Source: Prasinococcaceae sp. CCMP 1430
Taxonomy: Eukaryota; Prasinodermophyta; Palmophyllophyceae; Prasinococcales; Prasinococcaceae
Assembly: GCA_013416795.1 (NCBI GenBank)
Contig: RQSC01001125.1
Coordinates: 33,010 to 73,891, forward strand
Length of the DNA stretch: 40,882 nucleotides
Direction of reading: 5' to 3'
The notes beneath the pieces were generated by a model, which saw only the letters and a program-made list of their open reading frames with translations, searched no databases and was not told the DNA's origin. Both the position numbers and the translations under genes were made by a program. How positions within the stretch are numbered: the stretch's first letter is position 1; the number at the start of each line of letters is the position of its first letter. Of this stretch, positions 1 to 34,768 are shown piece after piece.

Positions 1-885
1 AACGGCACGCTCTTCGGCACGCTCTGCGGCAACCACCGCGAGATCCTGCACAAGTTCAGTGTCGAGCTGCCCAAGAAGCACGGTCGCGGTGGACAGTCGG
101 CGCTGCGTTTCGCGCGCCTGCGCCTCGAGAAGCGCCACAACTACGTCCGCAAGACGGCCGAGCAGTGCACGCAGATGTTCATCACGAACGACAAGCCCAA
201 CGTGGCGGGCCTCATCCTGGCGGGTAGCGCCGACTTCAAGACCGTGCTCAGTGAGTCCGAGCTCTTCGACCCGCGCCTGAAGGCCGTTGTGCTCAACATC
301 GTGGATGTGTCGTACGGCGGCGAGAACGGCTTCTCGCAGGCGATCGAGCTCTCCGCGGAGTGCCTGGCCAACGTCAAGTTCATCCAGGAGAAGAAGCTGC
401 TGTCGAAGTATTTCGACGAGATTTCGCAGGACACGGGCAAGTACGTCTTCGGCGTGCGCGACACCCTGTGCTGCCTCGAGATGGGCGCCGTGGAGACGCT
501 CATCGTGTGGGAGAGCCTCGACGTGACGCGCCACGTGCTGCGCAACTCTGCCACGGGCGAGGAGACGGTGGTGAACCTCTCGCCCGAGCAGGAGGCCGAG
601 TTCTCGTTCCAGGACAAGGAGACAGGCGTGGACCTCGACAAGGTCGAGTCCAAGCCGCTGCTGGAGTGGTTTGCCGAGGAGTACAAGAAGTTCGGCTGCA
701 CGCTGGAGTTCGTCACCAACCGCTCGCAGGAGGGGTCCCAGTTTTGCAGGGGCTTCGGCGGCATTGGCGGCACGCTCCGCTACCAGGTGGACTGCAGCAC
801 GTTCGACGAGGAGCAGTACGAGGCGTACGAGGACGACGCCGACTCGGGCAGCGACGCGTGGGATAGTGATGAGGACTTCATCTGA
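1..885 (+). CDS. ETF1: Eukaryotic peptide chain release factor 1 (eRF1), 3' part
   Basis: The frame is open from base 1 and ends at TGA 883-885, giving 294 residues. It is the middle and C-terminal part of eRF1, the cytosolic factor that recognises all three stop codons and releases the nascent peptide together with eRF3. The catalytic GGQ tripeptide lies at 88-96, inside a [17 protein letters not shown] context typical of the M domain. The C domain that binds eRF3 follows, and the protein ends in an acidic Asp/Glu-rich tail (about 820-882), as in animal and plant eRF1. GGQ is near residue 183 in human eRF1 but at residue 30 here, so about 150 N-terminal residues (NIKS and YxCxxxF decoding motifs) lie left of the window. 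No intron is seen in this part. It converges on the DNAI3-like gene. Family assignment is very secure. Confidence 0.97.
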
Positions 886-5026: not shown

Positions 5027-5078
<52 letters not shown>

Positions 5079-5877
5079 ACGCCATCTCCACCCCGACCCC
5101 CGCGCGCGCGCGTCCGCCGAGCGCGGCCACAGCACCGCCCCAAACCCAGCCACAGCCACGACCGCCGAGGACCGGACCCGGTATTCACCGGGCAGACCCG
5201 GCTGAGCACCCCATCTCCCGAGAACGACCCCGGATCACCGCCGGCCGTCCCCGGCGTCCGAATGCGGCGCTGCGCGCGCCGCGCCGCGCGGCCCCTGTCC
5301 CGAAATGGAAATGCCATCCGCAGAATTCCACACTCATGAGGGATTTGGATTTGATACGTACCATCAGGATATGTAGTACAAACGACGGAATCCAAATGGC
5401 GCTGGCTCTTTGCAAAAAATGCATCTGTTTTGACGTGCGTGTGCGCGTAGCGCGCGCGCGACGCGCCCGTCCTTCCCGCGCCCAGGAACGCGCATGCGTT
5501 TTGACTGCAGGCGACCGGCCGTTCCCCGACCGACGGGCGCGCGCGCGACGCGCCGCGCGAGCCATCGACTCGAGCCGCGCTGGGGCACACACCGCCGGCC
5601 CGCCCGCCCGCCCGTATCTTGCTGGCCGGAGCCCAGGCATTACTCAGTCCCGTCCGTTTCTCACGTCAGGCGGGCCGGGCCAACCAACCGCCCGGCGCCC
5701 CTCGCTCCAACGACCCAGGGAGAATCTAGCTCAGATCCCAAGGAGGTGGGGGTGGCCCCACAGAGCGCGCCCGCGCGCTCGCGGGGTGTGGGCGCACGCG
5801 CGCGCGGGGGGGGGGGGGGCTGAAGGCAACAGCGACACGGCGCCCGGCTGCCCGCGACCGGGGTGGAGTCGCGAGCG
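4836..5877. other. Divergent promoter region between DNAI3 and the cysteine-rich gene
   Basis: About 1 kb without a convincing gene. It is extremely GC-rich, with alternating CG/GC stretches, the 50-nt C run and a shorter G run at about 5809-5819. A less GC-rich island at about 5330-5435 stands out and may be promoter or 5' UTR sequence. The long open frames here have poor codon bias and no recognisable domains. Confidence 0.6.
5029..5078. repeat. 50-nt poly-C / poly-G homopolymer
   Basis: An uninterrupted run of 50 C on the plus strand (G on the minus strand) lies about 195 bases upstream of the DNAI3 start. The exact length may be a sequencing or assembly estimate. Confidence 0.9.
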
Positions 5878-8800
5878 ATGCGCGCGCCGGCGCGGGCGGC
5901 GCAGCTCGCCGCGGCGTGGCTGCTCGCACTCGCGGCGGCGGCGGGGGCGCAGGTCCTCCCCGAGATTGGAGCGAGCGGCTCAAACTCAACCGCTGGCGGC
6001 AGCGACAGCCCCTGCGCACGCGCGTACGAGTACGTGCCGCGCGGATGCATGCGCTACCGCACGAGCGCGCGCTGCGAGCGGCGCTCCTAGCGCCCGCGCG
6101 CCTACCCCTCGGTCGCCCGCGACTGCGCGCGCACTCCCTGACGCAGCAGCGGCGCCGCGCTCCCGCTGCGCGCGCGAACGCAGGCTTGGCGCCACATTCG
6201 GCTCAGCGTGCCCCAAGGACTGCTCGTACGACGTGGGCGAGAGCGGCTCCGGCCCCGAGTGTAAAAGGTATCAGCCCGAGTACGGCGTCAGGTGCACCGC
6301 GACGCGCTCGCAAAGCGACGACTGCCTCGCGGTGCTCCAGGAGATCCTTGGCGACGACGACGCCAAAGCATGCCTGGCCGCCGACCTTTCCATCAGCGAG
6401 AAGGAGCTCGTCAACGGCGTGGAGTACATCGCGGGACGGTGTGCTCTCGTCAGCGACGACGCCGAAGAAGGCCCCGATGCTTGCGCAGCCAGCTTAACCG
6501 GCCCGTGGCAAGACTTTTCGAACAACTGCCCGAAGGTGCGCAGAGACGCCCGAGGACGAGGCTTCCAGAGGGCGCCAGTCTGCCCAGGCGCGGGATGGTC
6601 GGCGTCACGCGCGCGCGCGCGCGCGCGCCCGTCGCCCGAACGCGAGCGCAAACTCTCACGCGCGCCCCCTGGCCTCGCCTGCTGACCCCCTCACCGACCC
6701 ACAAACGCCCCCCCTGCCTGTCATGCTCACTCGTGCAGGACTGTACAAATGATCCCAGCGAATACGGTCGCTACCGCGCCTGCGAAAGCGAGGAGGAGCA
6801 AGAGTACGGTAATGCGTGCTCGGAGCCTTCGCTCAACTGCGTTGGGACCCTAGACGCACTCACCGCGGAAGACTTCGCGTGTTTTGCGCAGGCGTACCTT
6901 GGCAATGCCATCGCCGGAGAGGACCTGCAAGGCATCTTCCTTCTGTACCTACGCCCCGCCTGCGCAGGCGCAGCCACAGGCGAGTGTGCCGCGTCGAACG
7001 CGCGCTGGGCGCGCTGGCCGCAGATGTGCCCCCAAGACTGTGCCGACTGGTGAGAGGCGCGCCTCCGCGGAGCGATGCGGCAACGCGCGAGCGAGCGTTG
7101 GCGCGCTGAGCGCGCGAGCGCTCGCAGCGAGCTCGTCGCAACATTTGCGCGCGCAAACGCGCGCCGCGCTGCGGGTATCGGTGCTGACTGCGCGCACCAC
7201 GCCAGCTCGGAGGACCCAGACTCCGAAATGCGCTGCTGCGAGAGGGGTGAGGAAGAGTATGGACACGCCTGTCGCGAGAGTGAATGCGCGGCATACCTCT
7301 CCTCGTTCACTCACGAGGACTTGGAGTGCCACCCCTCAGTGATCACCGGCGATCTTCCGATCGACTCGCTGGTGGAATATATGGGGCAGTTCGCATCTGT
7401 GTGCTCGCCGGGTGCGTCAGAGTGTCACGAAGCGCCCAACTACTTCCAAGAGGTAGACGAAGCGTGCGAGCGCGACTGCACTACGGATGATGACGACCGT
7501 GACTTGCCGCAATGCGAGCGCGGGCAATACGAGCGTGGCAAGAAGTGTGCCGGGGACAAGAAGGTGCGCCCGCGCGTTCGTGCGGGGCGGCGCGGGCCTG
7601 CGGATACCCGGGCGATCGGGCGCGCCGCGCGCGAGCGCGCTTCGTTCGCTCGCAATACGCTGCTCACGCGCGCGTTTGTGCTGCGGTCTCACAGTGCTCC
7701 AGGGCCTTCGAAAAGGCATTCACCGAGGAGGCTGCGACGTGCTTCATCGAGGCGGCTCAGGGACGCCAGACGGCCGCCATCGAGTTTATGGTCAATGTTG
7801 TCGGCCCCACACTAGGTGCGCAGGGCGCAGGGCGAAAGGCGTAGGCGTCCTCTGCGCGTGCGTGCGTGCGCACGGGCGGGCGGGCGCGCGCGCGCGCGTG
7901 GCCGCGTCTTCACCTTTGCACTCGCGCGGGTTTCTCTGACCCCAGCGAGCGCTGCAGGGTGTGACGCCGACTTTGATTGCGACGTGGACGATCTATCCTG
8001 CATCGCGGATGAGGAGTGCGGTGAGTCATTCCAGGCGGTTACCGTTGACAATTACTGCGAGGACATCGAGTCCTTGTTGACAGGCCCGTGCCTCAAGAGT
8101 TGCAACAAGTGCGTGAAAAAGTACGTGATTGAACGCTTCCAGAAATCGGTGTGCGGCGATCGCAGGTCTGGCCCGGCCGACCTGACAGGCGAGCCGGCCG
8201 AGGCATCGTGCTCGACCAAGACGCTCTATCAGTGTGGCCTGGACTCGAGCTGCTTCTTTTCGCAACCGCTGCGGCGCTGCTTCGACAAGCCCAGCGGCTG
8301 CGTGGGACTGGACCAGGCGGCGTGCGGCGCCGCGGCCTCCATGGGCTGCTTCTTTGATCCCGATTCCGCGCTGTGCCTCAGCTTCTCTCCGGCTGAAGCC
8401 GGGTGTCGCGCTGTGGAATCACTATTCAGCGCATGCCCCGCCGATTGCACCAACGACTACGAGGGCGTGACTCCGTGGCTGCCGCTCTGTGACGGGGCGC
8501 CGCAATACGGGCGTCTCTGCAGCACGAGCAGCATGTGCGCGGATGCCATCCGCGACGCCGACCCCGAGTTGCTGGGGGCGGCGCTGCGCGAGCCGTCTGA
8601 CGAGTCGCCTGAATCCTTTTGGAGTTGGTCGCTGTTGGAGCTGCTCTATCAGTGTCAATCCGAAGCCGCGGAGGACTTCCCGTTCTATCCAATGTGTGGT
8701 GACTCCTGCGACTTCGACATATCCCAGGACGTCTGCGACGGCGTGGAGGACTTCTTCCGCAGCCGCGACTGTCTCGATTCTTGCAGCCCCTTGCAGGTAC

Positions 8801-11800
8801 AGGCCCTTGAACGCGCCAACGTGAAGTTGGGCTGCCGCAAGAATGAGCGCGACTTCAGCGATCACGAGGCCACCGGCGCATGTGGAGGCATAGGCAGCAA
8901 CGACGAGTGCGACGACGACGACGAGTGCATGTGGTCGGCTAGTGCACAGCGCTGCCTCGACCGCGAAGACCACCTCGAATGCCACCACTTCTCGGCTCAG
9001 AGCTGCCCCGTGGGCGACGAGGAGGAGCGCAGGACATTTGCTCTCTCAGAGGACGTACAAGTGTGCCGCGAAGTCCAGCACAGGTGCCAGCATCATGCCA
9101 CGCGCGCCGAGTGCGATGCGGACGACGACCTTTGCGTGTGGTATAGCCTCAACGAAAGTGCGTACGGCACGTGCGACAAGCCCGCCGACGACTGTTACGA
9201 GTATCGCACCGCAGACTCGTGCACCGAGACCTATCACGCAGAATGCAAGTGGAATGCAGCGGTGGGTGGAGGAGGCGCGTGCGAGAGGATGCCGGAAGGC
9301 TGCGCGCGCTTCAGCGGGCGCGATGAGTGCGAGAGCGACGAGGCGCGCACCGAATTTGGGTGCATATATGACTCCGCCCAGGCGAGGTGCATGGACCCAC
9401 CGAACTCGTGCTACGAAATCACCTCAGAGAGCACTTGCGCTGCGGTGTTTGACTTGTACTCGGAGGGCGTCCTGGATGATGAGACCTTCAAGGGCGGCTG
9501 CAAATGGACCAATGCGGATGGGTACTCGTACTGTGGGTACCCGTGCAATTGCTGCAACGACCATGGCAGCGATCGATACACGTGCTCTGCCGATCCCCAA
9601 TGCTACTTCGTTGAGGAGGGAGAGGAGCAGTCGTGTAGGGAGCTACCATCAAGCTGTTGGGAAGTGGGATCAGAGACACACTGCCGCGCTCCGTGCTTGT
9701 GGCATGACGACCGCTGCCAGAACCCTCCCGAAATGAGCTGTGGGGAAATCAAAGACACTTTTGGCGCGGAGGCGTGCGAGGCTTTTGACGACTACAAGAA
9801 GTGCGTGTTGCTGGAGGACGGCGCATGTGAGGAAGCCTCGTGCAGCTCGTACACGAACGCCTTCCAGTGCGACACGCGATCCAATGGCCAGTGCCGCTGG
9901 GACGGCCCGCACGGCTCCGGCAAGTGCCGCAAGTACATGGGTTGGTGCGATGGGTACAATCAGGACTACATGGCGGGGGAGACGGAGGATTCGCGAAGAG
10001 AGGACTGCGAGGCGACGCGCAATTTCTTCTACGAGTGGAGCAAGCCCTGTACTTGGAGAGACGGACGGTGCGCTGATACGGTGGACGAGCAGGTCCACAT
10101 CTGCAAAGGCGAGGAGTCTGGGCGGGTGCGTTTCACACGCGCGCGTGGTGCAACCGAGCGAGTATGCGTACTACTCATTCGGTCGCTCTGCCCGCCGCGT
10201 CCGCCCGCAAGTCTCGCTGCGCGCCGGCGCGCCAGCCCGCTGCGCTCGTGCTGACGCGCCGTCGCCGGATGCGTGCGCGCGGCCGCGCCCGTGGGCGCTA
10301 CGGGTGCCGTTTTGGCTGGTTTCCATCACCGGCGCCGACGCCGCCTCACCCCGCATCCCCCCCCCCCTCCCCCCCCCCTCCCTCGACACCCCCGTCGACG
10401 ACGTCATGCCGCATGGACAAGGCCTGCACTGGCGTCAGCCACTGCGAGTGGGTTCCAGGCTCCGAGGACTATGAAGGCATGGTCTGCCGCCCCAAGTCCT
10501 GCCGCGAGGCCACTGACGCGGACGCTTGCAACATGCTGTCCGAGGCCATGCCCTGGTGCTACTGGGAGCCCGAGGAGGGCGTGTGCGTCACGCAAGCGCG
10601 GGAGTGCGTCGACCTCTCTGGCGACCCGCTCGCTTGCGAGTTGGACGGGCGCTGCAAATACCGCCCCGCAAGCGAGCTCGGCGTGGTGGGTGGTGCCCAC
10701 GGAACGTGCGAAAACAAATGGGATAGTTGCAGGCCTTTCGCAGGGCGCGACGAGATGTGTGGGAACGGGGAGTTGTTTGGCTTCAAGCAATGCAAGACCA
10801 GTCCGGTGGGTGGCACGGGCAACATCGTGCGATGCGACGAGTCGAGGCCAGACGACTGCGGCTCGTTCTCGGACGCGGATAGCTGTGCTGATGCGAACGC
10901 TTGGCGTTCAGGCTGGGATTCGCGGAGGTGCGTGTGGCGCCCCCGCCTCGGTGGTGACGGCGGCGCCTGCATTGACACAGATGAGAACGACAAGTGCGCG
11001 GCGGCGACGACCGAGGAGTCCTGCGAGAACACAATGGATCAAGCTGGGGAGATCTGCCACTGGGCAACGCCCGAGTACTTCGAACCGATGTGCATTTCGC
11101 GCCCTTGGAGCTGCTGGGACGTGATCGACCAGAAGGGATGCGCAGCAGACATGACAATAAGTGGGAACGAGTGCATGATGTACACGGAGAAAAAAGAGTG
11201 GGCAAGTGGCGACAATATCTGCCAAGACTTCAGCTGCCACGAGCTTGCCAACGATCGATGCGAGGGCGTTCTGGGTGGAGCACGTTGCATGGTGAACGAC
11301 TGGGGAGGGTGCGAGGATTGGAAGTGCGATCGATTCGGCGACAGCGAGGACGAGTGCGCTGCCGCTGGTGGCGGGGGGTTGTGCCTCATGCATCCGGAGC
11401 GCAGGGAGTGCTTGCCCGCGCCGTGCTCGTCGTTCGACTCGCAGGACACATGCGAGGACGACAGGGGCGGCTCGCGCAAAGCGAGGTGTGGCTGGCTGGA
11501 TGGCACATGCATAGAGATGCTTGGCCACTGCGGCGAATACGACCACCACAACGCTGATATGGGGAGACCTTCCCAGGACGCCTGCATGTGGCACGAAGGC
11601 GGAGGCCACTGCAGGGTCCGTCGCTGGGGCTGGGATTCCCATGCAACCAGCTGCACCGAGGTGGACGACGAATGCGCGGAGATTTCAGATGCGGGCGAAT
11701 GCGAGGACGAAGGCTGCGCCTGGCACTCCATCCGGCTCCCCGGCGGCGGCGAGGCACACGCGTGCTTCGAAGGCGGGTATTGGTCATGCGATGATGGCGC

Positions 11801-13404
11801 CTACAGCGAGGAAGCGTGCGAAGTGGCTTCCACTGCCGACCGGCGATGCGCGTGGTTCCCCGACGCGACAAGCCGAGCAGGCGTGGGCAGGTGCAAGGAG
11901 ATTCACGACGAGAACCAGTGCGAGGCACGCTCCTCGCGCAGGAGCTGCGAGGGTAGTTGGGAGGACTGCATGTGGGCAAGCGGCGAGAGGTTCACGCGCT
12001 GTCAGAGCAGCCCTCAGTCGTGTCACGAATACAGCGAAAACGACGGCGAATTGATCTCGGCTTGCGCATCGCACGGCGACGGCACGACGTGCGCAGTGCG
12101 AACAGACTTGGAGTGGTCCAGCTGCGAAGATGTGCAATACGGCATACCTGGCGGCTGGAGTGTCGACCGCACTTATTGTGACGACGCCTCCGTAGAGGGG
12201 TGTTCGAGCAAGAGCAACCGCAAGGTTGGCTGCGTGGTGAGCGAGCCCACCTGGATGCATCCCGAGGGCGTGTGCGTTCTTGGGGCCACCGTCGCCGACG
12301 TCACCGAGCTCGAGATCGTCAGGGGGCGCGCGACGAGCGCCCTCGTGGGCACACGCGTGCGCGTCGAGGGAATCGTGACGGCGTCCGGGGTGGGCCCATC
12401 CGAAGAGTTCTCGTATGTGCAGCACGACGGCGCCGGCGTGGCGGTGCGATTGCCCTTGCGCAGGGGGCAGCGCGTTGCGATCACCGCGTACGTGGGCTAC
12501 GAGGTGCGACCGTGGATGCGCGCTCGTTCTCGCGTGGCGCGCGCATGCGCTTGGCGCTGGCGCGAGCGCCCATGCAAAGGTAGCTGACAGAACGGGGCGG
12601 CGTCCCGCACGCGCGCGACGCGCACGCACACACTCACTACCGCCGAAAAGGACGGGCGGGCATCTCTCGCATTCCCCTCGGTGTCCTATCTGGGCGCCGC
12701 CACCAGCAAGGAGCTTCGGAATGCTGTGGCCGAGACCACCATCTCCGCGCTGCAGTACGACGTGGCCGTAGGCACGCTGGTATCTATACAGGGAGTGATG
12801 CTCGGCAACTCCTGGGGTGAATGGGACTACCCCAGGCGTTTCGACGCCTTCGATGGCAACTTCCGGGAGCTGCGAATCGCATTCAGGTGGTACCTCAAGG
12901 AGGACGAGGACGATCATGACCTGGGCGAGCTGGATGTCTCCTCCGGTGACTACCTCGCGTCGGTCGTGGGGTTGGTGCTCATCATTGATGGTGCGCAATG
13001 CGCACGTGTGTGTCCGCCGCCTGCGCGTACAGCACTGCTTTTTCGTGGGTCGGAGTAGAGAGTGGCGTGGTGGGTGGTTTGCAAAGAGGACAAGCGTGCA
13101 ATGTGCTAACGCGATCCACCGCGGTCGGGCCCGCCGCCGCCGCGCCGCAGATGAGCTCACGCTCGTGCCGAGGGACCGCGACGACGTCGTGGTGGGCAGG
13201 CCCCCCGCGGACGACGACTCGAAGAAGAAGAAGAAGAAGAGCAAGAAGAAGGAATCGGCCAAGAAAGCCAAGAAGGCCAAGAAACTCTCCAAGAAGCAGG
13301 TCAAGAAGCTCTGCAAAAAGGCCAAGTCGAAGAAGAAGTGCAGGAAGGGCGACGCCAAGAAGCACTGCTCCTTTAGCAAGAAGAAGGGCTGCGCCCCGAA
13401 ATAG
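5878..13404 (+). CDS. Very large secreted cysteine-rich modular protein, function unknown
   Basis: ATG 5878 begins a clear signal peptide (short basic start, Leu/Ala core, AGAQV). Modelled exons: 5878-about 6033 (3' limit uncertain), 6218-6535, 6739-7049, 7206-7563, 7695-7815, 7958-10125, 10422-12503, 12651-12990, 13151-13404. All phases fit, giving about 2,000 residues. The N-terminal third carries modules with CPxDC and C-x(3-7)-[EQ]YG-x2-C signatures. From about 8880 to 12270 there is a long array of PSI/plexin-like repeats (C..C.W....C...P..C with Asp/Glu before Cys). Then comes a roughly 170-residue Cys-poor part resembling the OB-fold found in extracellular nucleases (TRVRVEGIVTA, YVQHDGAGVAVR). 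The protein ends in a Lys-rich tail with a few Cys. I recognise no catalytic domain. An extracellular, cell-wall, scale or adhesion role is inferred only from the signal peptide and Cys content. The exon 1/2 junction is unresolved: frame 1 stops at 6088, and either the GT at 6034 or a non-GT donor could be used. Confidence 0.8.
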
Positions 13405-13755: not shown

Positions 13756-14400
13756 ATGAGTTATCTCATCCCGCACCTGGCCAACGGCTGGGAGGTTGAC
13801 CAGGCCATCCTCAGCGAGGAGGAGCGCGTGGTGATCATGCGCTTTGGCACCGACGGCGACGCGACGTGCATGCTCATGGATGAGGTCCTCGCGGGCATCA
13901 TGGACAAGATCAAGAACTTCGCAGGTGTGGAACGCCGGGCGAGAGCGCGCGAGCGCGAGCGCGAGCGCGAGCGCGAGCGCGAGTGCGTGCGCGTGCGCGT
14001 ACGCTTGCGCCGCAGCCGCAGATGCGGCGCAACGCTGACGCGCTGCGGCGCAACGCTAACGCACCGGCGCGCCGCTGCTGTGCCCGTCTACCCCACGCTC
14101 CCACCCACCCATCCCTCGCGTGCGCTGCGGACGAGTGCAGTCGTGTACTGCGTGGACAACCAGAAAGTGCCGGACTTCAACTCGATGTACGAGCTTTACG
14201 ATCCGTGCACGGTCATGTTCTTCTTCCGGAACAAGCACATCATGGTGGACCTGGGCACGGGCAACAACAACAAGATCAACTGGGCGCTCACCGACAAGCA
14301 AGAGTTCATCGACATCGTGGAGACCGTGTTCAAGGGCGCGAGGAAGGGCCGCGGCCTCGTGGTCTCGCCCAAGGACTACTCCACCAAGCTCCGGTACTAG
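13756..14400 (+). CDS. TXNL4A: U5 snRNP thioredoxin-like protein TXNL4A / Dim1 / Dib1
   Basis: Two exons, 13756-13924 and 14141-14400, intron 13925-14140 (gtgtgg...gtgcag), phase 1. The predicted protein has 142 residues, exactly the length of human TXNL4A. It is a component of the U5 snRNP and U4/U6.U5 tri-snRNP needed for spliceosome activation in the nucleus. Family signatures are nearly invariant: MSYLIPHL at the start, VVIMRFG, YELYDPCTVMFFFRNKHIM, DLGTGNNNKINWA, and SPKDYSTKLRY at the C terminus. The join NFA|VVYCVD restores the expected strand. The fold is thioredoxin-like but, as usual for the family, lacks the redox CxxC. ATG 13756 starts the conserved N terminus, so the start is certain. 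The intron contains a GAGCGC hexanucleotide repeat. Confidence 0.97.
   Translation: MSYLIPHLANGWEVDQAILSEEERVVIMRFGTDGDATCMLMDEVLAGIMDKIKNFAGVERRARARERERERERERECVRVRVRLRRSRRCGATLTRCGATLTHRRAAAVPVYPTLPPTHPSRALRTSAVVYCVDNQKVPDFNSMYELYDPCTVMFFFRNKHIMVDLGTGNNNKINWALTDKQEFIDIVETVFKGARKGRGLVVSPKDYSTKLRY
13951..13983. repeat. GAGCGC hexanucleotide tandem repeat in the TXNL4A intron
   Basis: Five perfect GAGCGC units plus a partial one, continuing into degenerate GTGCGC sequence. It is intronic and shifts no reading frame. Confidence 0.85.
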
Positions 14401-29232: not shown

Positions 29233-32200
29233 TCAGAAGAAGAAGCTGAAGGCGCTCATGTTCGGATCCAGGAACTGCGTCGAGCGCGCAGGTTGGTCAG
29301 GCGGGGTCGTCTTCGCCGCGGACGCCGCCTGTGCCATATCGGCAGCACGGCTGCGCGCTGATGAGTCGTCATGCAGGACGCCCCTGCTCGCCTCAAAGTG
29401 AAGCGATTTGGGCGCATCGAGCGCGTCAGGGTGAAGCAGGGGCAGCGGAAGAGGCGGGGGAGCTGGGCGAGTACGAGGAGAGATGTCCGTGTTGGCAGTC
29501 GGAGGCGTCGGTGTTGGCACAGGCGCGAGCGTGTGGCCATGATCGTCGTGCAAGCGTGGCTGCCGCGTCGTAGGCTGCTGCGGGCTCCTCAGGGCCGAGA
29601 TGCGGTTGGGCACAGCAGGAGTTGACCTGCTGCTTGCGAGCGGCTGACGAGCCGATGCCGGGAGGCGTTGCTGCGAACATTCATTCAGGGCCCCTTGCCG
29701 CTGCTGCGCGAGAATGTCGCTGGCCATGCGGAAGGATGAGAATGGGCTGTGCCCAGCCCCAGCACCCGGTACCCCCGCCGACCCGCGTGGTGAGACGCGA
29801 TCCCTTGCTGCAGACGAGAGGTCACGTGACGAGGACGAGGACTGCCTCTGTCGCAACGCTGCGAGGCGAGCAGCTTCTCCGGGGGGCGTGCCCGTATCGC
29901 TCGATTGCTGCCGTGTCTGCGGCTGCTGGATGAAGTGCTGCACCGACACCCCGTCTCCCCCAGCGAGGTCAACAGAATGAGCGCCCTCATCAAGGTGCTG
30001 CAGATCATACAAGAAGGATCCTACTGGTGAAGGCACTTGTTGGACTCTGCTGCTGGGAGTGACATCAGATGGTGGCGGGCGCGTCGTCGGCTCCAGCGGG
30101 TGTGGCTGCTGGTGCCGGTCATGTGCTGAAAGCCAAAAGCCACTGCCGCTCCCCCCGTGCACCGGTGCTTGTTTGGGTGGTGCTTCGTGGGTGGCCGATG
30201 GTGGTGCTGGCGCTGCGTCTGTTGCTGCACCCAGGCCACTGACACCAATCTGATGCCCCTGTTGATCAAACGCGGGCGTCGTCATCGCCGCCGCTGCCAT
30301 GCCTCCGTGCGTTGCGGCCCCTACCGAGGCCCCCTGCCGCAAGGTGTCGAGAGCTGCGGGTGTCCTTTCACCAAGAGCGAATCCTGCGTGGGCGTCGCCA
30401 CCGGCATTGTCTGAAGGGGTGTCGACGTCGTTTGTGAGAAGGGGCTGACGCCGTGGTGCCTTGCGCGAGCTACCGCCGGAGCTCGTGCCTAGTGTTCGTT
30501 TTGCAGCGGGTGCCTTGCTGGCGGTCTTGCGTTTGCCAGGTTCGCACTCGGCAAGCGACTTTCGCCAACGTGACCAGTCGTCGTCGTCCCACATGAGACC
30601 CCTCTTGCTGCAGGAGCGTCGCCATCATGTGACGGTGATTTGAGTTTGCGTAGTGGAAAGCGGATCGAGTTTGAGATCGCGCGCGCGCTGATTAGCTACT
30701 GCCAGTTCGAGCTCTACTCACAATGCTGGGATAAGTGCGCGCCGCATGGCTTTCCTTCCGCTGGTCCGCCGCGCTTGGCGCGCGCTGAGCGCATGCGTAC
30801 CAGCACATGTGCTTGCATGTAGTGCGGTCTTTGCAACGGCACTTGCAAGGCGGACGCCCCTGCATCCCAGTTTTCTGCTTCTTCTTTTGAAGTTCCTGAG
30901 CCTGTTCCAGCCGCTGCTGCTGCTGCTGCTGCTGCTGCTGCGTCTGTGCATCAAGGTCCACCTGGAACTCGCTATCGGTTGTGCTAGGCGTGCCGTTGCC
31001 GAGAAGATCGAACGCACCGCTGCCAATCTCCAGAGAATTGCGCGCAGGCGGCGGCTTTGCAGCAGCAGGGCTCGGCGACATCGTGCGGTTGAGAGAAGAC
31101 TGTACCATGCGACGTTGTGATTGCTGCAGTCCCCCGGCGGCGCCAGCGGGACTGCTGGTGGGGCTGCCGTTGCTGCCAGCAATGGTGATTGCCCTGTCGC
31201 AACCGACGAGACGCTCGTTGATGAGCCACGCACGGATAGCCTCACCTGGCCCAAGCATGGATGGCACCTGCACGGTCAATTCGAGGGGAGAATTGAATCT
31301 GCACAAGTCGATGCGCTCGCGCAGGAAGATGGACTGGGTGCCCGTGGAGCCGAGGCAGACCACCGCCCAGCGCGCTCCCGGGTCGGGCTCGGGCTGGCGC
31401 GCCGTCGCTCCCGCGTCGTCGGTGCGAGAAAGAACAACACTCACGCGCATGTTGCCGCCAGGTGCCGCCGACGTGGAGGCGCGCAGCTGCACGTCTGGAG
31501 GCAGCATTGCCGCCACCTTGCCCTTGAGCTGCTGGCCGAACGGGTAGTCCTTCATGCACGCGCGCTCCAGGAGGCGAGTATCGGCGTTTGCAATTGAGCT
31601 GAAGCTCGTGAAACCGGCGCTAGCCAGGCGCTGACTCAGCACCGGGCCGATGTCGGGCAGCTGGCGCGCCACCAACTTCGAGTCGTGCCACAGGCGCTGG
31701 CGTGATGCTTTGGCCAGTCGCATGGCACCAAGGTACATGTCGAGCCTCAAGACGCTCGTGCAAGTGAAGTACTCTGCCATGACTTTGCAGAGTCGCGGCA
31801 CGACGTTGGCGAGCCCTCGCTCCTCGTTTATGCATTCAGCCGGCAGTGCATCTCGCCCGCTGGATGAATCCGAGCCAGCCCGAGCGCCGCCGCCGCCGCC
31901 GGATCCGGGGGTCTGGTCGAACTCGGGTGGTGGACCAATCATGTGGTTCATGAGGATCTTGGTTTTCTCTTGTCCTGAGGCGATACGCTTGCGCACCTTG
32001 GCGTGATCGTCTGGATCGCGCGCCGGGAAGCGGCAGGCCGCCTTGTTGCGATTGAAAGCGTTCAGGCCGTTTTTCTCGTTGCGGCGAAGGCGCACATTCG
32101 AGAGCTCCGCAGATGCCGCGACCGTGTTGATGACAGCCTCCTCGGCGCTGATCCCCTGCGCAGGCCGGGCAGAGACGATGCGCTGCATCGTCGGCCAGCG

Positions 32201-34030
32201 CACGCACCAGCGAGCCATGATCACACCTGCTTCGGTCGACTCGAAGGACCGCCCGTCTGGCTTGAGGGTCAGCATGCCCGCCGCGCCGAGCTCCTTGGCA
32301 GCAGCTGTGGCGAGCGCCCGCAGCTTTTCGGACACGATCTCCGCATTTGCGCGCGCAGCGGGAGGAAGGCCGTAGTGACTTGGGTTTGACTTCATGCGCT
32401 GAAACATGAATGTTGTCTTCATCCAGTCTGCAGCCCGGTCGACGTCGTTGACCGTGAGCAGCGCGGCCTCGACATTCATTTGCTCGACCATCGTGGTCGC
32501 GAAGGCGCTCTCCAGCGGCTCGCCCTTGCCGATCATGGCACGATAGCGCGCCTCCTGCGTCCCGCGGCCCATGATCACGCAGGTACCGCTGTCGTCGAAC
32601 TGCGGCCGACCAGCGCGACCCACCATCTGCTGGATGTCGCTCATTGGGTACTCCACATGACTAGCCTGGCCCGCGACGTAGCGTGCTGTCCCGCACACGA
32701 TCACAAGGTGCGCGGGCAGGTTGACGCCCACCGCAAGCGTCGTCGTGGCCGTCACAACAGCAAGGTCGCCTGCAATGAACAGCCTCTCGACGAGCTCGCG
32801 GTCAGCAATATCGAGGCCAGCGTTGTGATGCGCGACGCCAAAACGGATTGATGCCCTCAGCTCGCGATCCTTAGCGAGCGCTGCCGCGCGGTCGAGGCGT
32901 TGGGCCTGTTGCTGCGTGCATACGAATGAGTTGGCATTGGCGCGTGAGTCCTCTGCCAGCCTCTTCGCGCACTCCACGGCTTCTTTGCGCGTGGCCAGAA
33001 ACACCAGCGAGGGCTTGGAGTCTGAGTACTTGTTCACGACCGAAAAGAGCTGTTTCTGCAGCGTAAATTTGGTGAACATGAAGTCTGACGAGCGCGTGTC
33101 ATTGAAGCCAAGCACAACGCGCTTGAGCTGCACCGGTCGGTGCTCCTCGCCAAAGCGTTTGATGTTCTGCGGCTGGCACTCGAGCCACTGCCCGACGTCC
33201 TGCAAGTTCGGGATCGTCGCTGACACGGCAACGACGCGCAACCTACTGATAGGCGCGTTTCTCAGCTCAGGGAAGCGCGAGAGCAGCCGCAACCTGCTCA
33301 CCACAGCTTCCAGGATCGAACCGCGGTCGTCGCCGACGGTGTGCACCTCGTCGAGCATCAGCAGGCCGACCTCGCCGTAGAAGCTCATGCCGCTCGTGCC
33401 GCCTTTGTTCTGCAGGTGCCACGGCGCACGGCTCGTTGAGTCCAGCTTTTCTGCGGTGCACACAAGCACGTCAGCGTCCGCGAGCGCCGCGGCGTCTGCC
33501 GCCTCATCAGTGTCTCCGGTGAGCTCGTGGAGCTTGATGCCGAGCAGGCCGAGCCGCTTGCGCCACTCCCTGAGCTTCTCCTGAATGAGGCTCTTCAGTG
33601 GCGCGATGTAGAGCGCCTTCACATCGCGCATGGCATGCGCCTCCGGCGGAGCGTTGGGGGGCGCAGCTCGCGCTGCGGCGCGGAGCTCGAGCATGCGCAG
33701 GATGGCGAGCTCGAAGGCGACCGTCTTCCCGCTGCCCGTCGGGGCTTGCAGCACGACGTTGTCGTCCGCACCGCGTACCGTGGGCAGGATGTTGCTCTGC
33801 AGCGCGTTGAAGAAGCGGAAGGAAAAGCACGCGCGCTCGCGCTGCGGCAGGGAGCTCACAGGCACGAGCGCGTAGTCCTCGTTGCTGCCAGCCGCAGCGC
33901 CATCCCCGCCATCGCTCCGCCGCGAGGAGGGTGCCTCGTTCCAGCTGCTGGGCCCGCCACCTCCAGCAACAGCGGAGGCTTGCGCGCCGCTGCTCAGCCG
34001 CCGCACCTCCCTCGCCGCAGCGCCCGCCAT
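29233..34030 (-). CDS. HFM1: Meiotic DNA helicase HFM1/MER3 with long low-complexity C-terminal exon
   Basis: The main exon, 34030-30722, encodes the helicase; intron 30721-30604 (gtgagt...cagcaag), phase 0, leads to exon 30603-29233. Predicted 1,559 residues. HFM1/Mer3 is a 3'-5' superfamily-2 Ski2-like helicase that stabilises recombination intermediates for class I (ZMM) crossovers in meiotic nuclei. Motifs seen: APTGSGKT (Walker A, about residue 96), LMLDEVH (DEVH box, about 223), VSATIPN, QMVGRAGRPQFDD (motif VI, about 465), then the Sec63-like region. Near residue 1030 there is a nine-Gln run. Next comes a Cys/His cluster (PCKCRCKDRTTCKHMCW) like the C-terminal zinc finger of HFM1. The second exon is Ser/Pro/Gln-rich low complexity, begins RGLMWDDDDW and is linked only by splice phase; it could be a separate gene starting at ATG 30594. 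The start at ATG 34030 (MAGAAAREVRR) is preferred over upstream codons in poor-bias sequence. Confidence 0.88.
30914..30940. repeat. (CTG)9 / (CAG)9 trinucleotide repeat coding for poly-Gln
   Basis: Nine perfect CAG codons on the minus strand inside the HFM1 coding exon, giving a nine-Gln run just before the zinc-finger cluster. A pure repeat, so likely to vary in length between alleles. Confidence 0.93.
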
Positions 34031-34768
34031 CGATCGCCGCCTGCAGCCCGGGAGAGCGCGGCGCGGCCCGCTCAGGAGAGCGGCAGGCGCAAAAAAAACG
34101 CGCCCGCGGAGAAAGAATAGAGGCGCAGCACGAGGATGCACGGCCCCGCGCGGCGCGGCGCGGGGGCGGGGGGTGGGGAGTGGCACACTGCGCGCGAGTG
34201 GACGCACGGACGCCTCGCCTGCTCGCCCTCCCCCTGTTCTTTGCTTCGTTCCCACCGCACAGGCTTTCGGTCGAGATGGCGGCCTCGCGGGCGGCGGCGG
34301 CGGCGCCGGCGGCGCGCGAGCGAGGGGCGCGCGCGCGCGCACGCCCCTCGCCCCTCGGCACTGCCGCAAGCTTGTAGGAGAGGGCGGGGCGGGGGAGGGT
34401 GCAGAGGGGGGCGGGGCGCGCGGCGCGCGCGCCGTGTGGCGCGCCGCCGCCAACAATGCCAACAACGTGCGCCGGCGCAGCAATTGCGATTTTCCGGGTT
34501 TGCGAAGCTGCGGATTTCGGAGACTCCGCACGAAACGGAACGCCGCGCTCGGACCCTTCCGCATGTTTGGCTGTTGAGTGCGTTCGCGCATCAAAGACGG
34601 AGAAAGCGCGGAAAGCGGCGCACGCGATCCGCGATGCGATGCCGATGCGATGCGATGCGATGCGCCGCTTGCCGCGGCGCGCAGTGCGGGCGCGCGGGCG
34701 GCGTGCCGCTGTCACACCCCGTCCCGGCCACGGCCGCTCCCTGGCGTCCCCGTGCTCGCTCGGGGGGG
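34031..34768. other. Divergent promoter region, HFM1 / membrane protein
   Basis: About 740 bases between two divergent starts. Mostly extremely GC-rich; one lower-GC patch at about 34475-34610 and a GCGAT tandem repeat (about 34632-34662). Minus-strand translation is open but Pro/Arg/Ala-rich with poor codon bias, so I treat it as non-coding. Confidence 0.5.
34632..34662. repeat. GCGAT pentanucleotide tandem repeat
   Basis: Repeated GCGAT/GCCGAT units, five to six copies, about 110-140 bases upstream of ATG 34769. Confidence 0.75.

Follow-up and report, generated by a model that had tools for sequence, protein, structure and literature searches.

The window, a stretch of 40,882 nucleotides from the green alga Prasinococcaceae sp. 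CCMP 1430 (contig RQSC01001125.1, positions 33,010 to 73,891), has a GC content of 66.9%. Positions 5878 to 13404 of its forward strand hold a gene for which we built, from the sequence alone, a model of nine exons and eight GT-AG introns. The spliced frame encodes 2,049 amino acids without an internal stop codon and finishes at 13404, the same gene end as proposed in an earlier note on this DNA. The eight introns are 130 to 296 nt long, their phases are all compatible, and six of them have donor sites starting with GTGCG. The model is least certain where introns 6 and 7 end, at AAG acceptors that were picked by phase. The gene has the following features:

5878-5949 (+): signal-peptide-like N-terminus, aa 1-24 (MRAPARAAQLAAAWLLALAAAAGAQ), called by the same heuristic that was used on the other tail-bearing proteins
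5878-6029 (+): exon 1 of the gene model
6184-6535 (+): exon 2, Cys-rich helical module 1 (CPKDC...PEYG...)
6739-7049 (+): exon 3, module 2 (DCTND...QEYG...)
7206-7563 (+): exon 4, module 3 (EEYG...) and the beginning of module 4
7695-7815 (+): exon 5, remainder of the degenerate module 4
7946-10125 (+): exon 6 of the gene model
8209-8406 (+): two 4-Cys units in exon 6, aa 520-585
8434-8709 (+): additional CPxDC/QYG module within the array, aa 595-686
8881-10125 (+): 4-Cys array part 1, aa 744-1158 (C-x6/8-C-xn-C-x-W-xn-C units)
10422-12503 (+): exon 7 of the gene model
10422-12275 (+): 4-Cys array part 2, aa 1159-1776, in exon 7
12276-12503, 12651-12990 and 13151-13209 (+): Cys-poor domain or domains, aa 1777-1985
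12651-12990 (+): exon 8
13151-13404 (+): exon 9
13219-13278 (+): Lys-rich linker (KKKKKKSKKKESAKKAKKAK)
13279-13404 (+): C-terminal 4-Cys Lys module of 41 aa (KLSKKQVKKLCKKAKSKKKCRKGDAKKHCSFSKKKGCAPK, then stop), including the stop codon

The predicted product contains 176 cysteines (8.6%) and 45 tryptophans. With its signal peptide and uninterrupted frame, it bears out the earlier description of a single, very large, secreted and Cys-rich protein made of several modules. The architecture was also said to match no named family, and we found no full-length relative of the protein in its own genome (24.5 Mb searched, in 145 contigs), in Pfam or in the PDB. Its rank as the window's largest gene is not established: a Brr2/SNRNP200-like helicase gene on the minus strand, of which one frame alone spans 1,339 aa (30695-34711), may be longer. 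The window also contains an eRF1/pelota-like gene at positions 1-882 (+) and, as the next gene downstream, a homologue of Dim1/TXNL4A at 13757-14400 (+). Upstream of the gene, among CG-rich repeats, are a poly-C run of about 50 bases (5029-5078) and a poly-G run (5808-5819).

Cysteine-rich modules and the Cys-poor domain

The first three CPxDC/EYG modules are encoded by one exon each (2, 3 and 4), and the degenerate fourth module spans exons 4 and 5. These modules had been described as N-terminal. They are present there, but they are not confined to this region: one of them recurs inside the array (aa 595-686). The structure predicted for an N-terminal module is mostly helical, with a confidence (pLDDT 59) too low for a fold search. 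Searches among PDB sequences returned nothing credible for the N-terminal modules or for the array.

Some 21-22 units with the pattern C-x6/8-C-xn-C-x-W-xn-C-xn make up the array (aa 520-585 and 744-1776). A profile trained on these same units recovered 21 of them from the protein at i-E<0.1, whereas 300 shuffled versions of the protein gave none. The long Cys-Trp array reported in the earlier note is thus real, but its likeness to PSI domains did not hold. PSI domains (PF01437) are likewise small, built around cysteines and marked by a C-x-W motif; however, the spacing of cysteines in the array differs, and PF01437 gave no match to the full protein at E<=10. The sole Pfam family to match was PF01508 (Paramecium_SA). 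In the genome search, this family matched two stretches of the array above its cut-off of 21.2 bits, at 9769-9948 (27.4 bits) and at 11340-11519 (24.7 bits). It scored 21.7 bits against the translation of exon 6 and 20.8 bits, just under the cut-off, against the full-length protein. Because of this last score, we regard membership of the family as borderline. Judged from these sequence matches, 'Paramecium surface-antigen-like' still appears to be a better label for the array than 'PSI-like', and the array would put a ciliate-antigen-like Cys unit into green plants. The structure predicted for the 4-Cys unit, from a model based on 20 units, is a helix followed by a beta hairpin (pLDDT 79), and it had no significant PDB match in the fold search.

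We found no paralogue of the N-terminal modules or of the array in the genome at the search threshold, except for a fragment on contig C120 (C120:225636-226010, L036). There, 162 nt are identical at the DNA level to positions 10742-10903 of the window, beside a single N and in otherwise unrelated sequence. We rejected this stretch as a paralogue of the array, since 162 nt of identical DNA next to an N are probably an assembly artefact.

The region between the array and the tail (aa 1777-1985), which is interrupted by two introns, had been described as an OB-fold-like Cys-poor domain. It is indeed poor in cysteine, but searches of Pfam, NCBIfam and PDB sequences gave no support for an OB-fold.

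A C-terminal tail shared by unrelated proteins

The Lys-rich tail described in the earlier note is present, and its last 41 residues recur in about 20 other genes, which makes it the most informative part of the protein. Using the C-terminal part as the query of a genome search, we obtained 22 matches outside the window gene, every one of them to the tail. The tail alone, in a protein search of the genome, retrieved 22 copies with E-values from 1e-13 to 5e-5, including that of the window gene, and one weaker copy. About 20 genes besides that of the window end exactly with this module. In each copy examined, the stop codon comes right after C-x-P-[KRA] or C-x-P-T-K, except in the first member of a tandem pair at the end of a repetitive protein (L050, C31:187195-187431). 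The loci that we read share one layout: a Lys-rich linker of variable length, the 4-Cys module and the stop codon. The consensus is K-L-S-K-K-x-V-K-K-L-C-K-x-A-K-S-K-K-x-C-K-K-G-D-A-K-K-x-C-x-F-S-K-K-K-G-C-x-P-K-stop. When 21 copies were aligned over 43 columns, the mean column identity was 74%, and L3, K9, K18, the four cysteines and the final proline were invariant.

At E<=1e-3, no more than two pairs (L045/L046 and L052/L053) resemble each other in the DNA 3' of the stop codon. Hence, the copies do not stem from one recent duplication. Since pN is also lower than pS in 198 of the 210 pairs of tails, the peptide seems to have been maintained rather than freshly copied. The constraint is only modest (pN/pS of about 0.53), and codon bias is strong. 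The first of the two pairs is one gene found on both contigs C69 and C108, identical beyond the stop codon too; this may be a duplicated region, an allele or a redundant contig. As a consequence, the number of other distinct tail genes is about 20 to 21. The second pair lies in a stretch (C3:329336-358436) with three adjacent tail copies and related 3' flanks.

We found no significant match to the tail in Pfam, the PDB, or the viral (IMG/VR) and prokaryotic (GTDB) collections, and a literature search retrieved no description of such a C-terminal tail. The tail has no hydrophobic stretch and hence no GPI or membrane anchor. Its cysteine spacing, C-x8-C-x8-C-x-[FYW]-x5/6-C, matches that of the array unit. 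Among Pfam families, PF01508 scores best against the tail consensus, at 14.2 bits and far below the cut-off; two divergent tails (L056 and L058) align weakly to the array-unit profile in local HMM scans, and an hhalign comparison of the unit and tail profiles was not significant (0.4%). We offer a common origin of tail and array unit as a suggestion based on these resemblances.

Proteins that carry the tail

The hosts of the tail are mutually unrelated, and several belong to no known family. The tail follows a GH19 chitinase (L040), a peptidase M60 (L041), a temptin with a copper monooxygenase (L044), a DOMON domain with a copper monooxygenase and a DUF4215 (L054), an array of 11 LNR repeats (L043) and an esterase-like protein whose profile score is below the cut-off (L051). 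Two neighbouring genes on C3 (L052 and L053) encode RCC1_2 repeats with the tail and have signal-peptide-like starts. The heuristic used to identify signal peptides gives about 0.76 chance hits per 5 kb, and about half of the hosts have upstream exons that are missing or unmodelled. Given this chance rate, only in-frame signal peptides were counted. They occur in the window gene and in at least six other genes (L038, L040, L043, L044, L045/L046 and L052). Two of these, L043 and L052, have the signal peptide and the repeats in one frame and the tail in another further downstream, presumably with an intron in between. In three cases (L037, L042 and C43), the tail is preceded by Pro-rich stalks of the SPPPP type, which are typical of wall glycoproteins. 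None of the tail-bearing proteins that we saw is clearly cytosolic or nuclear.

Genes of the sulfotransferase family are present in the genome, so a sulfated matrix would be possible. A search of the genome for lysyl oxidase (PF01186) gave no match, and the control likewise matched nowhere. Another giant Cys-rich frame, of 1,777 aa, lies at C36:11302-14448 (L006, L007) and is not among the tail-bearing genes. Repeats that resemble LNR (Notch) come first in it and give way to numerous, nearly identical PSI-looking repeats of the form C-DYKSC-DAC-..-GCVWW..GQC.

Possible function of the tail and of the protein

We propose, with a probability of roughly 55%, that the window protein is a scaffold of the cell wall or matrix, held in place by a C-terminal Lys/Cys retention module that is used genome-wide. 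Retention is the simplest account of the tail, because the latter is strongly basic, has four invariant cysteines, lacks a hydrophobic anchor and ends diverse secreted hosts. The signal peptide would route the window protein into the secretory pathway. The 21-22 or so 4-Cys units, if disulfide-bonded, would form with the helical Cys modules a stiff, protease-resistant rod, and the Cys-poor part may serve as a distinct domain for ligand binding or spacing. In the tail, the compact 4-Cys knob, together with its flexible poly-Lys stem, would bind, or become cross-linked to, an acidic or sulfated polymer of the wall. Such binding would keep enzymes, lectin-like proteins and scaffold proteins on the cell, the window protein being a large structural or adhesive scaffold in the wall or extracellular matrix of this green picoalga. 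Extracellular matrix, scales, mating and adhesion had all been put forward as roles for the protein; a wall or matrix role fits best, and nothing that we found points to scales or mating.

The tail might instead be an intracellular sorting signal, read by a receptor and directing proteins to a secretory granule, a vacuole or a Golgi-derived compartment, without binding the wall. Its extreme C-terminal position in unrelated secretory proteins would suit such a signal, as would the constancy of its length and sequence, which extends beyond the charged positions. However, four invariant cysteines and long Lys stems that vary in length are more suggestive of a binding module than of a receptor motif, and several of the hosts have Pro-rich stalks of the wall type. 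We therefore consider this alternative unlikely. It is less probable still that the tail is cleaved off and acts as a cationic, Cys-stabilised peptide with an antimicrobial or signalling role. The tail is small and very basic, has four cysteines and, being C-terminal, could be released by cleavage of the Lys linker that precedes it, but large enzymes and scaffolds would then serve as mere carriers, and the linkers show no constant cleavage site.

The match to PF01508 raises the question of whether the window protein belongs with the variable surface antigens known from Paramecium and Tetrahymena. This is the only Pfam family matched, with two stretches above the cut-off, and Paramecium surface antigens are likewise large, secreted and built from Cys units that recur periodically. 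In contrast to them, the window gene is green-algal and single-copy, and it adds the N-terminal modules, the Cys-poor domain and the Lys/Cys tail. The C-terminus is hydrophilic, Lys-rich and without a GPI signal. Moreover, the genome contains no whole-gene paralogue that we could find, and hence no repertoire of antigens to switch, which makes this reading very improbable. Finally, the tail can hardly be an intracellular or nuclear Lys-rich region, given that its hosts include secreted enzymes with signal peptides, nor a similarity due to low-complexity lysine: Lys-rich stretches are common and inflate scores, but the four invariant cysteines, the invariant leucine and proline, the GDAK core and the fixed end speak against it, and a degenerate DNA pattern (CxxGxAKxxC) gave 29 matches, about 20 of them tails, against 2 for the reversed control. 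This control and the 21-copy alignment exclude pure low complexity.

If the tail does retain proteins in the wall, it would be the first retention tag of this kind, C-terminal and used genome-wide, to come from a green alga, and it would provide both a ready-made list of wall proteins and a handle for purifying them. The data suggest that it is a 'keep me in the cell wall' tag that has not been named before. We advance a more far-reaching version of this proposal tentatively, at somewhat less than even odds: this early-diverging green alga may construct its wall or matrix by means of a Lys/Cys anchor that is dedicated to this task and sits at the C-terminus of about 20 unrelated secreted proteins, a eukaryotic counterpart of bacterial surface-sorting tags. 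The window protein would be one of the scaffolds so anchored, and the module would be a Lys-rich descendant of a 4-Cys unit resembling that of the Paramecium antigens.

The same module on many unrelated exported proteins is a general trait of C-terminal sorting and retention tags, and the algal tail shows it. Bacteria use such tags for surface display, e.g. MYXO-CTERM with myxosortase (PMC11980579). Like the algal tail, MYXO-CTERM is a short C-terminal module common to dozens of unrelated exported proteins of one organism. It combines a Cys motif with a transmembrane helix and an Arg-rich end. The algal tail, by comparison, has four cysteines and no known enzyme that processes it, and it lacks the hydrophobic helix with basic residues behind it that is typical of MYXO-CTERM and LPXTG signals. 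In diatoms, Lys clusters target secreted proteins to the frustule, and the pentalysine clusters and LERs of silaffins and cingulins resemble the algal tail as Lys-rich segments on secreted proteins (PMC9650480). These clusters are short, interspaced with Ser and Gly, internal and devoid of a conserved four-Cys domain, whereas the algal tail is strictly conserved in sequence and ends the protein.

In the genome of Prasinoderma coloniale (25.3 Mb, 69.8% GC), no enzymes for the main plant wall polymers were found, and its authors noted that the wall components still need exploring (PMC7455551). The genome analysed here encodes chlorophyll a/b-binding proteins, which we read as being of the green type, and plastid psbA. 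On contig C136 (236903-363430), psbA and psbD each occur twice, inverted and with unequal spacing, psbD being called by its weaker Photo_RC score; this arrangement may be an inverted repeat or a misassembly.
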